Shown: one piece after another, positions 35,993-49,841 of the stretch
Position numbering within the stretch: the stretch's first letter is position 1
Layout: each line of letters begins with the position of its first letter
NCBI RefSeq assembly: GCF_017743735.1
Contig: NZ_JAGHRO010000007.1
Span: 124,001 to 188,000 of the forward strand
Direction of reading: 5' to 3'
Length of the DNA stretch: 64,000 nt
DNA from: Shimia sp. R9_2
Lineage (GTDB): Bacteria; Pseudomonadota; Alphaproteobacteria; Rhodobacterales; Rhodobacteraceae
The notes under the pieces: generated by a model
What the model was told of the DNA's origin: nothing
What the model saw: only the letters and a program-made list of their open reading frames with translations
Database searches by the model: none
Translations under genes and position numbers: made by a program

Positions 35993-36016
35993 AAGCGCCC
36001 TCAGGGGCGCTTTTTT
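35993..36016 (+). terminator. Intrinsic terminator of the GST gene
   Basis: An 8-bp stem AAGCGCCC / GGGCGCTT (35993-36000 and 36005-36012) with a 4-nt loop runs into six Ts. Confidence 0.88.
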
Positions 36017-36048: not shown

Positions 36049-36123
36049 GCGGCGACATCAGGGAGGAGGAGAGATGTCGCCGCGCTTCACACAAAACGCT
36101 CAGGGAGGAGGAGAGAGCGCCTT
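36049..36123 (-). ncRNA. Cuckoo/CcsR-like sRNA unit 4
   Basis: A weak hairpin (about 36093-36123; 5 firm pairs around the loop) and a perfect 11-bp hairpin (36049-36083). This is the last unit. Downstream on the minus strand the region 35993-36012 can fold again and may end the transcript. Confidence 0.86.
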
Positions 36124-36155
36124 GATACCGGTGAGCCGCGTGGCTCGAATTTCGA

Positions 36156-36234
36156 GGCGGCAGCACCAGGGAGGAGGAGAGGTGCTGCCGCTCTAGTCAC
36201 AAGCGCCCTCAGGGAGGAGGAGAGAGAGTGCTTG
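36156..36234 (-). ncRNA. Cuckoo/CcsR-like sRNA unit 3
   Basis: Hairpins at 36200-36234 (11-position stem with one mismatch and one G-T pair) and 36156-36192 (11 Watson-Crick pairs plus a terminal G-T pair). Same loops. The second hairpin is again the stronger. Confidence 0.88.
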
Positions 36235-36266
36235 ATCTCGCTGGGCTATCGGAGCCCGAATTTTGT

Positions 36267-36344
36267 GGCGACGACGCCAGGGAGGAGGAGAGGCGCCGTC
36301 GCTATGTTCAAGTCCCTCCAGGGAGGAGGAGAGGAGAGACTTGA
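36267..36344 (-). ncRNA. Cuckoo/CcsR-like sRNA unit 2
   Basis: Two hairpins 4 nt apart: 36308-36344 (12-position stem, one mismatch) and 36267-36303 (12-position stem, one mismatch and one G-T pair, GC-rich). Both carry the 13-nt loop with CUCCUCCC on the minus strand. Confidence 0.88.
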
Positions 36345-36375
36345 GCTCTTCGGACCATTTGGTCCGTTGTTCGCC

Positions 36376-36444
36376 GCGACGATACCAGGGAGGAGGAGAG
36401 GCATCGTCGCAGAATTGGAAAGCCTGAGGGAGGAGATGGCTTCC
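36376..36444 (-). ncRNA. Cuckoo/CcsR-like sRNA unit 1
   Basis: The first two-hairpin unit after the DUF1127 gene. Its 5' hairpin (36417-36444) has a GGAA...GCC stem with one bulge and the variant loop. Its 3' hairpin (36376-36410) has an 11-position stem with one mismatch and the standard loop. The 5' hairpin begins 9 nt after the DUF1127 stop, so this unit must be cut out of the shared transcript or overlap its end. By analogy with CcsR RNAs, the C-rich loops may pair with G-rich ribosome-binding sites. Confidence 0.85.
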
Positions 36445-36453
36445 CGAAACTAT

Positions 36454-36669
36454 TTAAGCGTCTTGGCTGGCATCGATGGCCAGACGACGGATCATGGAAC
36501 GGCTCAGACCGAGGTCGTTCAGTTCACGATCAGACAGCGCGCTCAACTCGTTATAAGTCTCGCGGTAAACGCGGTATTGGCGCAGGCGCTCTGCCAAGTT
36601 TGCGATAAAAGCCGAAAAGCCAGAAGCCTTAGGGGCTGCCACCGGGGCGCTGTTTGCTGCATATGCCAT
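36454..36669 (-). CDS. ccaF1: DUF1127 small protein (CcaF1-like)
   Basis: A 71-residue basic protein whose C-terminal half (YRETYNELSALSDRELNDLGLSRSMIRRLA) is the DUF1127 helix pair. The N-terminus is Ala/Pro-rich. In R. sphaeroides the DUF1127 protein CcaF1 is co-transcribed with the CcsR sRNAs, binds RNA and affects their processing; that the same holds here is inferred from the gene order. AAGAG precedes the ATG by about 9 nt. A second DUF1127 gene lies at 49632. Confidence 0.88.
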   Translation of the reverse strand: MAYAANSAPVAAPKASGFSAFIANLAERLRQYRVYRETYNELSALSDRELNDLGLSRSMIRRLAIDASQDA

Positions 36670-36714
36670 AATCGTTACTCTTGCGTTTGAGTGTGTTCGT
36701 TCGCTTGTGGAGTT

Positions 36715-36742
36715 TATATGGGAGCATGCTGCAGATGCACAA
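36715..36742 (-). promoter_or_regulatory. Candidate promoter of the DUF1127-sRNA transcript
   Basis: On the minus strand TTGTGC (36737-36742), 16 nt, then CATATA (36715-36720), about 45 bp before the DUF1127 start. The -10 sits in CCCATATAA, which also resembles the CCAT-type -10 of RpoH promoters; stress-sigma control is known for the R. sphaeroides locus. Assignment is tentative. Confidence 0.4.
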
Positions 36743-36913
36743 TAGACAGGTCCGCAATGCAGTTATGCGCGGACGGAATATCAGACGCCACGTCACGAAC
36801 CGCCGCACAAGAATTGTGCAAATCGCCGAAAACCTTGAAGAAATATGAAGGTTTTACTACATGATCAAAATCATAAGTGCCTGCATTGTGCACTTGCAGC
36901 ATAGGAGTTCAGC

Positions 36914-37990
36914 ATGCCAGTGACCAAAGCAGATGTGCAGGCCGTATTGTCAAAAATTGCCTTACCGGACGGGAGCGATCTGGTGTCGCGCGATTTTTTG
37001 CGGGCCCTTGTGATTGACGGTGAGTCGGTGCGTTTTGTTCTTGAAGCGCCCAACGCAGATATAGCACGGATGATGGAACCGTTGCGCAAAGCCGCGGAAG
37101 CGTCCGTTGCACAGCTGCCCGGCGTGTCGCAAGTGCAGGTGGCGCTGACCGCGCATGAGGCCTCCCCTGCCCCAAAACAAGCCGCACCGAATCTCAAGAT
37201 CGGGGGGCACCCCAAACCACAGGCGGGTCCGATGAAAGTGGCCGGTGTGAAGCGCATTCTGGCGGTGGGGTCCGGCAAGGGCGGCGTGGGCAAATCCACC
37301 GTCTCCTCCAACCTCGCCGTGGCGCTGGCCAAACAGGGGCGCAAGGTGGGCTTGCTGGATGCAGATATCTACGGCCCAAGCCAGCCCCGTATGATGGGGG
37401 TCAACAAACGCCCGGCCAGCCCGGACGGGAAGACCATTATTCCCCTGCACGCCCATGGGGTTACCATCATGTCGCTCGGCTTTATGCTGGAGGAAGACAA
37501 ACCCGTGGTCTGGCGCGGGCCGATGTTGATGGGCGCGCTGCAGCAGATGCTGACACAGGTGCAATGGGGCGAGCTGGATGTGCTGATCGTGGATCTGCCG
37601 CCGGGCACTGGGGATGTGCAGCTGACGCTGTGCCAGAAAACTGAACTGACCGGTGCCATTGTGGTGAGCACGCCGCAGGATGTCGCCCTGTTGGACGCGC
37701 GCAAGGCGCTTGGCATGTTTGATCAATTGAAGACGCCGGTGCTGGGACTCATTGAAAACATGAGCCTTTTCCACTGTCCGAACTGTGGGCATGAGGCCCA
37801 TATCTTTGGCCATGGTGGTGTGGCCGCAGAGGCGGAGAAACTGGGTGTGCCGCTGCTGGGCGCGCTGCCGATTGATCTGGACACCCGGTTGGCCGGAGAC
37901 GGTGGCACCCCGATTGCGGCCGGGGAAAGCGATATGGCCAAGGCCTATGGTCAGATCGCAGAGGGCCTTGTGAAAGGTGGGATGGCCTGA
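36914..37990 (+). CDS. mrp: Mrp/ApbC-family iron-sulfur cluster carrier ATPase
   Basis: A 358-residue protein. The N-terminal DUF59/MIP18-like domain spans about 1-80. After a Pro-rich linker, the deviant Walker A GSGKGGVGKST is at about 119-129, then LLDADIYGPSQPRMMG, VDLPPGTGDVQLT and the cluster-binding CPNC (about 287-290) in FHCPNCGHE. It carries Fe-S clusters to apoproteins in the cytoplasm. It is a single gene, divergent from the DUF1127-sRNA locus across 240 bp. Length is normal. Confidence 0.95.
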   Translation: MPVTKADVQAVLSKIALPDGSDLVSRDFLRALVIDGESVRFVLEAPNADIARMMEPLRKAAEASVAQLPGVSQVQVALTAHEASPAPKQAAPNLKIGGHPKPQAGPMKVAGVKRILAVGSGKGGVGKSTVSSNLAVALAKQGRKVGLLDADIYGPSQPRMMGVNKRPASPDGKTIIPLHAHGVTIMSLGFMLEEDKPVVWRGPMLMGALQQMLTQVQWGELDVLIVDLPPGTGDVQLTLCQKTELTGAIVVSTPQDVALLDARKALGMFDQLKTPVLGLIENMSLFHCPNCGHEAHIFGHGGVAAEAEKLGVPLLGALPIDLDTRLAGDGGTPIAAGESDMAKAYGQIAEGLVKGGMA

Positions 37991-47622: not shown

Positions 47623-48585
47623 ATGCGCGCCTTTCAGGTAGTTTCCCACGACACCGCCCCCCGTTTGGTGGACTTGCCCACGCCGGAACCCGCAGCCGGG
47701 CAGATTCGGGTGAAGATCCGCGCCTGCGCTCTGAACTTCGGCGATCTCCTTATGATCAAGGGCACCTATCAGGCAACGCCGCCGGTGCCTTTCACCCTTG
47801 GCATGGAAGTCGCTGGCGTGGTCGATGCGCTTGGCCCGGACACCAAAGGCCCTGCAATTGGCACACGTGTGCTGGTGTTTGGCGGCAGCGGCGGATTGGC
47901 GGAGTTTGGCGTTTATGATGCGGCCAGCGCGGTGCCAATCCCGGATATGATGAGCTTTGAGGACGCGGCGGCCTTCCCTGTGGCCTATGGCACAAGCCAT
48001 GTGGCGCTGGATTACCGCGCGCGCCTGCAGCCCGGTGAGAACCTGCTGGTGCTGGGCGCGGCGGGCGGCGTTGGCCTGACGGCGGTGGAGCTTGGCAAGC
48101 TGATGGGCGCCAATGTGATTGCCTGTGCGCGCGGCGCGGACAAGCTCGCGGTGGCGCAAAAGGCCGGGGCGGATCACCTGATTGATGCCACCGATGCGGA
48201 CATTCGCGCGGAGGTCAAAGCGCTGGGTGGGGCTGATGTGGTTTATGATCCCGTGGGCGGCGAACAATTCAAAGCAGCCTTCCGCGCCTGCCGACCAGAA
48301 GCGCGCCTGTTGCCGATCGGCTTTGCATCCGGTGACATTCCACAGATCCCGGCTAACCACCTGCTGGTGAAAAACCTCACGGTGATGGGGCTCTATTGGG
48401 GCGGGTATCTGGCATTTAGACCAGAGGTGATTGTTGGCAGCATGAAAACCCTGTTTGGCTGGTACGGGGAAGGCAAGCTGTCCCCGCATGTGAGCCATGT
48501 TCTGCCGCTTGAGGAATCGGCAGAAGCTTATGAGCTGCTGCGCAGCCGTAAATCCACCGGCAAGGTGGTGGTGGCCATCAACTGA
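47623..48585 (+). CDS. NADPH:quinone oxidoreductase (zinc-free MDR family)
   Basis: A 320-residue medium-chain dehydrogenase/reductase-like enzyme from ATG 47623, with AGGAG upstream. It has the GroES-like N-domain (ALNFGDLLMIKGTYQATPPVPFTLGMEVAGVV) and the NADPH motif VLGAAGGVGLTAVELGKLMGA (about 141-161). Zinc ligands are absent, as in quinone or enoyl reductases. Its 3' end overlaps the convergent LysR gene by 8 bp. Confidence 0.9.
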   Translation: MRAFQVVSHDTAPRLVDLPTPEPAAGQIRVKIRACALNFGDLLMIKGTYQATPPVPFTLGMEVAGVVDALGPDTKGPAIGTRVLVFGGSGGLAEFGVYDAASAVPIPDMMSFEDAAAFPVAYGTSHVALDYRARLQPGENLLVLGAAGGVGLTAVELGKLMGANVIACARGADKLAVAQKAGADHLIDATDADIRAEVKALGGADVVYDPVGGEQFKAAFRACRPEARLLPIGFASGDIPQIPANHLLVKNLTVMGLYWGGYLAFRPEVIVGSMKTLFGWYGEGKLSPHVSHVLPLEESAEAYELLRSRKSTGKVVVAIN

Positions 48586-49471
48586 CCACCCCAAGTCGCA
48601 CAGGGGGCTCCGCCTGCGCATGCATGGGCTGGAACCCTTTGCGAATAAGATTAGCCAATTGGGCGATGACGTCGCCCTTGGCCTGATCCGCCCCATACAT
48701 ATTGATGTGCTGCTCTCCGAGATCGGGCAGCGATCCGCCGTGGTCGATCACCTCCAAATGGCGCGGCTCAGTGCCAAGCAACATCTCCCCAATCCCCAGA
48801 TCAGCGGTGATTGTCGCCTCAACGGTGCGATCAGAATCTGTCTCAAGCGCCGAGTCCCACTCAATCCCCGCACGGTCCAGCGCCGCAATGGCGCGCGGAC
48901 GGAAGAGGCAGTGGCGGGCAGAGGCAAACTGAATGGGGCGGCGGCGCCAGCTTGCCCCGCCGGGCGCACCGATCCAGACCAAAGGCAGGGTGCAGAGCCC
49001 CTCTGCTCCGTCCGGCGTGCTGGATTCCGTGGTCAGGATCAGATCAATCTCGCCCTTCTCAAACATCTGCTTGAGCTCAAGCGTGTAGGAGGAGACCAGA
49101 TTGACCTTCACACGTGGAAAGGCGCTGCTGAATTGCTGCATCACGCGCGGAATGGCCGGGTAGACAATGTCGTGCGGCACGCCAAGCGTCACCGTGCCCT
49201 CAAATTCATCATGGGACAGGCGGCGCATGATTTCATCATTCAATGTCACCATCCGGCGGGCATAGCCAAGCATCTGCTCCCCGTCCGGCGTCAGCGCGAT
49301 CCCGCGGCCTGAGCGATCCAGCAAGGCAACACCGATCAACTCTTCAAGGCGCTTGAGCTGCATCGACACCGCCGATTGCGTGAGATGCAGAAAGCCTGCG
49401 GCCTTGGTGACGCCGCCCATATCGGCCACAGCCACAAAACTGCGCAACGTGGTTACATCAAGATTTCGCAT
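48578..49471 (-). CDS. LysR-family transcriptional regulator
   Basis: A 297-residue regulator from ATG 49471. The winged HTH (LDVTTLRSFVAVADMGGVTKAAGFLHLTQSAVSMQLKRLEELIG) is at residues 3-46 and the effector domain follows from about 90. It is convergent with the quinone oxidoreductase and divergent from the DUF1127 gene at 49632. A 10-bp inverted repeat at 49488-49522, just upstream of the start, is a candidate autoregulatory site. Ligand unknown. Confidence 0.9.
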   Translation of the reverse strand: MRNLDVTTLRSFVAVADMGGVTKAAGFLHLTQSAVSMQLKRLEELIGVALLDRSGRGIALTPDGEQMLGYARRMVTLNDEIMRRLSHDEFEGTVTLGVPHDIVYPAIPRVMQQFSSAFPRVKVNLVSSYTLELKQMFEKGEIDLILTTESSTPDGAEGLCTLPLVWIGAPGGASWRRRPIQFASARHCLFRPRAIAALDRAGIEWDSALETDSDRTVEATITADLGIGEMLLGTEPRHLEVIDHGGSLPDLGEQHINMYGADQAKGDVIAQLANLIRKGFQPMHAQAEPPVRLGVVS

Positions 49472-49487
49472 GCCATTCCCCCTATAA

Positions 49488-49522
49488 ATCACGGATTTCG
49501 ATATATCATCAGAATCTGTGAT
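49488..49522. promoter_or_regulatory. Inverted repeat upstream of the LysR gene
   Basis: ATCACGGATT (49488-49497) and AATCTGTGAT (49513-49522), 9 of 10 paired, 15-bp spacer. The position, 17 bp upstream of the LysR start, fits an autoregulatory LysR site, though the T-N11-A core is not certain. Confidence 0.45.
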
Positions 49523-49631
49523 GCAATACCTCACAAACATTCGCTTTCAAGATATACCCCGCCTCCCATATACATCAAGTAATTTGATGCAGAGCACGAA
49601 ATCAATCGCAATTTAAGAAAGGATCGACTCA

Positions 49632-49841
49632 ATGGCCTTCATCACCACCTCCGCAGCTGCCTCCGGCACATCCAAATCCCTTTTCTCCCGCGTCGCGAAA
49701 GTGTTTGCCGTGCGCCGTCAGCGCCGCCAGCTTGCGCAGCTCGACAAAGCCGCGCTGTTTGACATGGGGCTGACCGAAGCCGATGTGCAGGCAGAGCTGA
49801 AACGGTCGGCTTGGGATGTGCCCGCGCATTGGAAAGGCTGA
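49632..49841 (+). CDS. DUF1127 small protein (second copy)
   Basis: A 69-residue basic protein. Residues about 25-60 (VRRQRRQLAQLDKAALFDMGLTEADVQAEL) match DUF1127 (YjiS-like). AAGGA precedes the ATG by about 10 nt. Unlike the copy at 36454, no CUCCUCCC-loop hairpins follow; instead a 13-bp palindromic hairpin lies about 90 bp downstream. Possible RNA-binding or stress role by family analogy. Confidence 0.82.
   Translation: MAFITTSAAASGTSKSLFSRVAKVFAVRRQRRQLAQLDKAALFDMGLTEADVQAELKRSAWDVPAHWKG

Follow-up and report, generated by a model that had tools for sequence, protein, structure and literature searches.

The window analyzed here, a stretch of 64,000 nucleotides (nt) from the genome of Shimia sp. 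R9_2 (contig NZ_JAGHRO010000007.1, positions 124,001 to 188,000), carries on its minus strand an array of eight hairpins directly behind a short gene of the DUF1127 family. Each hairpin presents the motif CUCCUCCC in its loop, the motifs starting at minus-strand positions 36435, 36395, 36328, 36287, 36219, 36176, 36110, and 36068. A first-pass annotation, made by a model from the letters of the window, had described an eight-hairpin array at this site; motif positions and fold confirmed it, and the folded array, 36445-36049, is one base longer than the span then given. Its count of seven identical 13-nt loops and one variant was also right, UCUCCUCCUCCCU being repeated in seven of the eight hairpins and replaced by AUCUCCUCCCUCA in hairpin 1. 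The product of the upstream gene matches PF06568 and the first array motif begins 21 nt past the last sense codon, in keeping with the claimed position 3' of a DUF1127 gene. The gene and the four two-hairpin units into which the array divides are as follows.

36454-36669, minus strand: DUF1127 gene, 71 amino acids, ccaF1-like, first gene of the proposed operon (PF06568, E 1.2e-15)
36374-36445, minus strand: unit 1, hairpin 1 (36445-36417, variant loop) plus hairpin 2 (36412-36374), from the fold; RF02791 match at 36450-36371, 46.9 bits
36268-36344, minus strand: unit 2, hairpin 3 (36344-36308) plus hairpin 4 (36302-36268), from the fold; RF02791 match at 36340-36263, 42.0 bits
36157-36234, minus strand: unit 3, hairpin 5 (36234-36200) plus hairpin 6 (36191-36157), from the fold; RF02791 match at 36238-36152, 46.2 bits
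36049-36124, minus strand: unit 4, hairpin 7 (36124-36092) plus hairpin 8 (36083-36049), from the fold; RF02791 match at 36128-36044, 52.9 bits

In the 4.47-Mb genome the exact 13-mer CTCCTCCTCCCTG has seven occurrences, all of them within the array, which excludes chance. Open reading frames (ORFs) that cross the array on the plus strand read through the repeats and, by inspection only, were rejected as coding.

Loops, stems, and RNA strand

We compared the window array with 24 other arrays of the genus. Stems of different sequence still pair, as had been asserted: for 171 distinct genus hairpins, with loop borders left flexible, the stem score had a median of 27, against 11 for randomly re-paired arms, and 93 of the 171 scored at or above the 95th percentile of the re-paired arms, a demanding control in that these include related arms. 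In a count with fixed geometry, which underrates stems with shifted loops, the paired fraction was 0.713 versus 0.566 with the arms shuffled for 50 distinct strong stems and 0.636 versus 0.470 for 77 weak ones. Conservation is higher in the loop than in the stems that carry it, since a single loop is common to 77 of 100 strong genus hairpins while their stems are of 50 distinct kinds. The alternation of weak and strong hairpins, from which the two-hairpin units had originally been defined, is almost invariable, the second hairpin of the unit folding more strongly (lower energy) in 99 of 100 genus units.

The annotation had also assigned the RNA to the minus strand, and two lines of evidence agree. 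The minus-strand fold of 36450-36045 reached -187.1 kcal/mol (z -9.9), compared with -176.9 kcal/mol (z -3.6) for the plus strand. Read on the minus strand, the 134 distinct stems of the 25 genus arrays contain 130 G-U pairs versus 30 A-C appositions (p 5e-16). A G-U pair turns into an A-C apposition when the opposite strand is read, and on this sequence evidence the minus strand is the RNA strand.

Family assignment and flanking elements

The locus is, in all likelihood, a new ccaF1-CcsR or CIN1 ("cuckoo") locus and its product a known type of small regulatory RNA (sRNA); we file it there because layout, strand, loop, DUF1127 neighbor, and promoter motif fit the description of that kind. In the available text on Rhodobacter sphaeroides, ccaF1 and the CcsR RNAs are cotranscribed, processed by RNase E and CcaF1, and ended by a Rho-independent terminator (PMC10253847, PMC8625941); the promoter depends on RpoHI/RpoHII, and CcaF1 affects CcsR maturation and levels (PMC10253847). 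As with ccaF1-CcsR1-4 (RF02791), there are two hairpins per RNA unit with CCUCCUCCC loops, the motif being present in seven of the eight loops here (hairpin 1 has only CUCCUCCC), and the units lie 3' of a short same-strand DUF1127 gene with a homologous promoter-region motif. The likeness to ccaF1-CcsR1-4 first drawn by the annotation is thus supported by what PMC10253847 gives and by the common promoter-region motif. The window units differ in scoring below the family cut-off, in a loop extended to CUCUCCUCCUCCCUG, and in the variant first loop.

Cuckoo RNAs and the CIN1 locus (Reinkensmeier and Giegerich 2015), as presented in the available text of PMC10746234 and PMC10253847, have the same loop motif, highly variable stems, and CcsR-like RNAs beside a short DUF1127 gene. 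Compared by description, the window fits: adjacent hairpins, constant loop, variable stems, and the DUF1127 neighbor, with eight motifs here and up to 16 in named loci of the bacterial family. NfeR1/ar14 of Sinorhizobium meliloti (RF02344) shares the CCUCCUCCC anti-Shine-Dalgarno loops, and the window gave RF02344 matches of 46.4 and 42.9 bits, under the curated cut-off of 58.8. The available text of PMC10746234 proposes that the motif masks the ribosome-binding site of ntrB and adds that NfeR1 loses its lowering effect on an ntrB reporter once its three motifs are mutated. That RNA has three hairpins and its own promoter, and the same text makes no mention of a DUF1127 partner, whereas the window array consists of two-hairpin units behind DUF1127. 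AbcR1/AbcR2, compared by description (available text of PMC10746234) and by Rfam scans, have similar but not identical anti-Shine-Dalgarno motifs and transport and metabolic targets. Among the listed titles and abstract openings of the open-licence literature we found no report of the locus in Roseobacter-group bacteria or of acs as a CcsR target.

A covariance search, which the annotation had proposed as a check, matched RF02791 (CcsR1) to each of the four pairs (E 5.9e-12, 3.4e-10, 5.6e-10, and 9.4e-9), all of them below the gathering score. All 25 genus genomes gave matches at E <=0.001, none of them passing the curated cut-off, whereas of the 394 family genomes sampled 324 gave such matches and 17 pass; the family scan used stricter filters, so a genome scored as matchless may still hold an array.

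Further elements were located upstream of the gene, between the units, and beyond the array.

36755-36768, minus strand: LysR-box-like footprint GCATAACTGCATTG, upstream of the promoter motif (pattern search)
36729-36742, minus strand: conserved promoter-region motif TTGTGCATCTGCAG, possible -35 or regulator site (pattern search)
36712-36722, minus strand: -10-like element CCCATATAAAC, putative function (position by script)
36351-36366, minus strand: spacer hairpin 1 (fold; genus spacer stem counts)
36243-36257, minus strand: spacer hairpin 2 (fold)
36133-36146, minus strand: spacer hairpin 3 (fold)
35993-36012, minus strand: possible bidirectional terminator, ending the GST gene on the plus strand and perhaps the array transcript on the minus strand (terminator scan, both strands)

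For the upstream elements we used, besides the genus, 80 named loci, the best 80 of 244 from a DUF1127-alignment scan, Shimia species included; the promoter test covered the 75 of them that are at least 3 kb long. The pattern TTGTGC-N2-5-GCAG was found ahead of DUF1127 in 71 of these 75 and also in the window, as against 0 of 75 control stretches, and a fuller promoter-region pattern is present in 25/25 genus arrays. For the LysR-box-like footprint, a stricter pattern matched 21 of 25 genus arrays, and a relaxed one matched 54/75 named loci versus 0/75 controls. At the -10 region, 20 of 25 genus arrays have CCTATA and the window has CCCATATA. Five unnamed family loci with high RF02791 scores (L143-L147) have both upstream motifs and a CCCAT-like -10 region; they share with the window the layout, the hairpin-forming spacers, and the promoter-region motif, and R. 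sphaeroides was not identified among the loci. Relative to the ccaF1-CcsR type, the window thus differs in its -10 region (genus CCTATA as against CCCAT in L143-L147) and in a last hairpin devoid of a T-run.

A sigma-70 scan found no promoter. A second copy of the promoter-region motif, TTGTGCACTTGCAG, lies on the plus strand at 36886-36899, just before a gene for an Mrp/NUBPL-type ATPase at 36914; the motif may be a regulator site instead of a -35 element. We do not claim control by VtlR: its exact published box, GCAT-N3-TG-N3-T, fits only 13 of 25 genus arrays and has 11 occurrences in the window. With up to two mismatches allowed, the LysR-like box has 16 matches in its own genome and the reversed pattern has 10; apart from the locus of the window array, none of the 15 remaining loci showed a DUF1127 in a crude protein-motif search. 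The genome has six DUF1127 matches in all. One of them is a second gene in the window, of 69 amino acids (49632-49841, plus strand), divergent to a LysR-type regulator gene (48578-49540, minus strand) whose best NCBIfam match is LrhA, far under the cut-off.

The small hairpins in all three between-pair spacers were absent from the earlier description. Across the genus, a perfect stem of at least 5 bp is present in 62 of 71 distinct spacers, versus 27% of shuffles, and one of at least 4 bp in 70 of 71, versus 61% (mean z -1.7). Downstream, the terminator scan gave three sites in 1 kb where 1.1 were expected from shuffles; the minus-strand T-tract, GGATGTTTTT, is weak.

Conservation and possible growth of the array

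By the annotation's own criterion, its reading would have been refuted had related loci failed to keep the loop sequence, but they do keep it. CUCCUCCC motifs stand downstream of DUF1127 in all 25 genus arrays, the gene ending 18-62 nt before the first motif, and at least three copies lie on the DUF1127 strand in 78 of the 80 named loci; the two without the motif, L127 and L132, are both short loci, and one named locus has one extra copy on the opposite strand. At least one downstream copy passes the stem score in 73/80. We scored 39 further family loci for DUF1127, out of 40 regions (the other, G262:C1:1-100, being an unused placeholder) picked from the top RF02791 matches and hence not a random sample: the gene lies within 120 nt of a motif in 29 and at 123 nt in one, and was not found at nine that have motifs. 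Among secondary RF02791 matches, L043-L046 are without CUCCUCCC; one of these, at L045:630-705, is a two-hairpin RF02791-like element with C-rich loops and likewise without CUCCUCCC, near which a crude search found no DUF1127.

The number of motifs varies, from 3 to 16 per locus across the 78 named loci and from 7 to 12 among genus arrays, 18 of 25 of which have eight. Runs of near-identical units in L095 (on the same contig as L026, twelve motifs) and in L096 (sixteen motifs) suggest that arrays may grow by tandem duplication of units. In L175:1146-3305 (motif-strand orientation), four DUF1127-like ORFs stand in a row, three of them with a motif no more than 34 nt after; here the entire protein-plus-RNA module seems to have been repeated.

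The ends of arrays and certain isolated units bear on the origin of the alternation. In 12 of 25 genus arrays the last strong hairpin has a TTTT run directly after it, as do 0 of 75 internal strong hairpins. Six of the nine family loci where DUF1127 was not found (L164-L169) hold solitary two-hairpin units with a T-rich tail after the second hairpin. Such tailed solitary units occur at three places in genome G118 and at four in G249. Taken together, these tails would make the unit an ancestral two-hairpin RNA with its own terminator, which would account for the weak/strong alternation: the second hairpin probably owes its greater strength to an origin as the terminator of a solitary two-hairpin sRNA.

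Candidate targets and interpretation

The loops had been described as complementary to ribosome-binding sites, with broad titration of translation starts as a possible consequence. Broad titration is supported only in part. The pattern GGGAGGAG-N3-10-ATG has 24 sites in the genome, one of them inside the array, versus 4 for the reversed pattern, and 18 of the 24 precede an ORF of at least 78 amino acids. As a yardstick, 2 of 54 window ORFs reach a loop complement of at least 8 nt, one of them a spurious ORF on the array and the other the gene for cytochrome oxidase subunit I. Selective binding fits so few genes (one real ORF of 54, and the 24 genomic sites) better than broad titration. The cytochrome oxidase subunit I gene (41601-39927, minus strand; named from its sequence) has its 8-nt complement, AGGAGGAG, within ACAGGAGGAGCGGCATG at the start.

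A Pfam scan of 10 of the 18 candidate target proteins returned four transport parts (SBP_bac_1, Peripla_BP_6, DctP, and ABC_tran) together with DUF4212, acetyl-CoA synthetase, a Fer2 subunit, acyl-CoA dehydrogenase, a ROK regulator, and enoyl-CoA hydratase. DUF4212 we take to be the partner of an acetate-type symporter. At its start the loop complement is at least 8 nt in 25/25 genus genomes and at least 9 nt in 24, and at that of the Peripla_BP_6 gene at least 7 nt in 25/25 and at least 8 nt in 19. For acetyl-CoA synthetase (acs) it is at least 8 nt in 16 of 26 scored genus starts, while nine starts belonging to the other acs copy have 4 nt; the copies were assigned from their upstream and N-terminal sequences instead of from a tree, three of the 29 acs loci were cut by contig ends, and the start scored at L219 (3 nt) is doubtful. 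Across the genus, start sites around AGGGAGGAG are thus conserved ahead of one acs copy, DUF4212, and the periplasmic binding protein. The best match to the ribosome is AAGGAGGU; the conserved AGGGAGGAG departs from it and fits the array loop. For the SBP_bac_1 candidate, a search of the other 24 genus genomes at E 1e-100 found no match.

We consider it highly probable that the locus is an operon of the ccaF1-CcsR (CIN1) type, in which a DUF1127 protein and four sRNAs that block selected translation starts are made together. A single minus-strand transcript, starting upstream of 36669, would span the 71-amino-acid DUF1127 gene and the four two-hairpin units, as sequence and conservation suggest. 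By analogy with R. sphaeroides, RNase E, probably with the DUF1127 protein, would cut in the spacers, beside the spacer hairpins, and so free four sRNAs of about 75-85 nt. The two C-rich loops of each sRNA would pair with purine-rich ribosome-binding sites of the GGGAGGAG type, and the pairing may block translation of selected uptake and acyl/acetyl-CoA genes, as the target sites conserved in the genus indicate.

Several results weigh against this interpretation. The RF02791 scores of 42.0-52.9 bits in the four pairs lie under the gathering score of 65.3, and sub-threshold matches also occurred in 1 of 14 unrelated control genomes. On the first point, 6 of 10 loci scanned (L143-L147 and L149) yielded eight passing matches, at scores of 104-107 bits in L143-L147, and these number only one or two per array of 6-14 motifs; what fails is the strict threshold, not the layout. 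No downstream motif passes the stem score in 7 of the 80 named loci. The spacer hairpins fail the strand test, with A-C 29 versus G-U 13 in genus spacers, a reverse bias perhaps caused by a conserved C-A apposition beside many of the stems; an RNase-E-like core is present in only 30 of 71 genus spacers, an uncontrolled count; and no T-run follows the last hairpin of the window array. The three target genes were chosen for a GGGAGGAG site in their own genome, so that only the other genomes count as evidence. In the wider family, a DUF4212 complement of at least 8 nt was no more frequent with RF02791 matches (17 of 57 genomes) than without (3 of 11; p 0.76), and a comparison of loop minus anti-Shine-Dalgarno complement for the same gene gave p 0.048, on which we do not rely. 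Since the DUF4212 complement does not track RF02791 matches in the family, the acs copy, DUF4212, and the Peripla_BP_6 gene stay predictions for the genus.

Other functions for the array can be weighed against the same data. It might serve mainly in autoregulation, as a sponge or precursor that occupies the DUF1127 RNA-binding protein or RNase E instead of pairing with mRNAs. Its place directly behind DUF1127 in 25/25 genus arrays, the variation from 3 to 16 motifs per named locus having any, and the effect of CcaF1 on CcsR maturation and levels (available text of PMC10253847) would suit such a role; this is nonetheless unlikely given a loop conserved beyond its stems (one loop in 77/100 strong hairpins, 50 distinct stems), the failure of NfeR1 with three mutated motifs to lower the ntrB reporter (available text of PMC10746234), and the nine of 39 family loci with motifs where DUF1127 was not found. 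The hairpins could instead be mainly the 3' stabilizer and terminator of the DUF1127 mRNA, their loops kept alike by copying of units. TTTT runs after the last hairpin in 12/25 genus arrays and the recent copying visible in near-identical tandem units, such as those of L095/L026 and L096, speak for this, but diverged stems around an unchanged loop within one array are hard to obtain by copying alone and comparable loops are seen throughout the family, solitary units included, which makes the idea very improbable.

The chance that the plus strand is the functional RNA, a CsrB-like decoy whose GGGAGGAGGAG loops capture CsrA, is slighter again. GGA motifs would then fall in hairpin loops, and the plus strand does fold better than shuffles (z -3.6), but the G-U/A-C bias, the fold z scores, the DUF1127 strand, and the promoter motif all favor the minus strand. 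Moreover, CsrA (PF02599) has no match in the genome, where the same search finds it in Escherichia coli, Bacillus subtilis, and Thermotoga maritima controls, and this removes the main plus-strand alternative. That tandem palindromes with a common core are a mobile REP/BIME-like repeat here by chance is scarcely credible, as the exact 13-mer loop has no dispersed copies in the genome and the locus stays behind DUF1127 in 25/25 genus genomes.

With the ccaF1-CcsR-type operon as the preferred reading, it is possible, and we propose it tentatively, that the array acts as a dosage-tunable translational brake on the uptake of acetate and organic carbon. Units would be gained and lost through tandem duplication, the motif count being 7-12 in genus arrays and as high as 16 in the family. 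The acs copy, DUF4212, and the periplasmic binding protein would have start sites (around AGGGAGGAG) kept off the ribosome optimum and in register with the loop.

The RNA type is a known one; the new leads are its variation in size and the likely acetate and transport targets in a marine genus. For this locus the analysis provides the strand, the units, the spacer elements, a promoter footprint, indications that units have been duplicated, and a small set of candidate targets that are conserved. An operon type studied as a source of stress RNAs in Rhodobacter thereby emerges as a conserved fixture of a marine genus.
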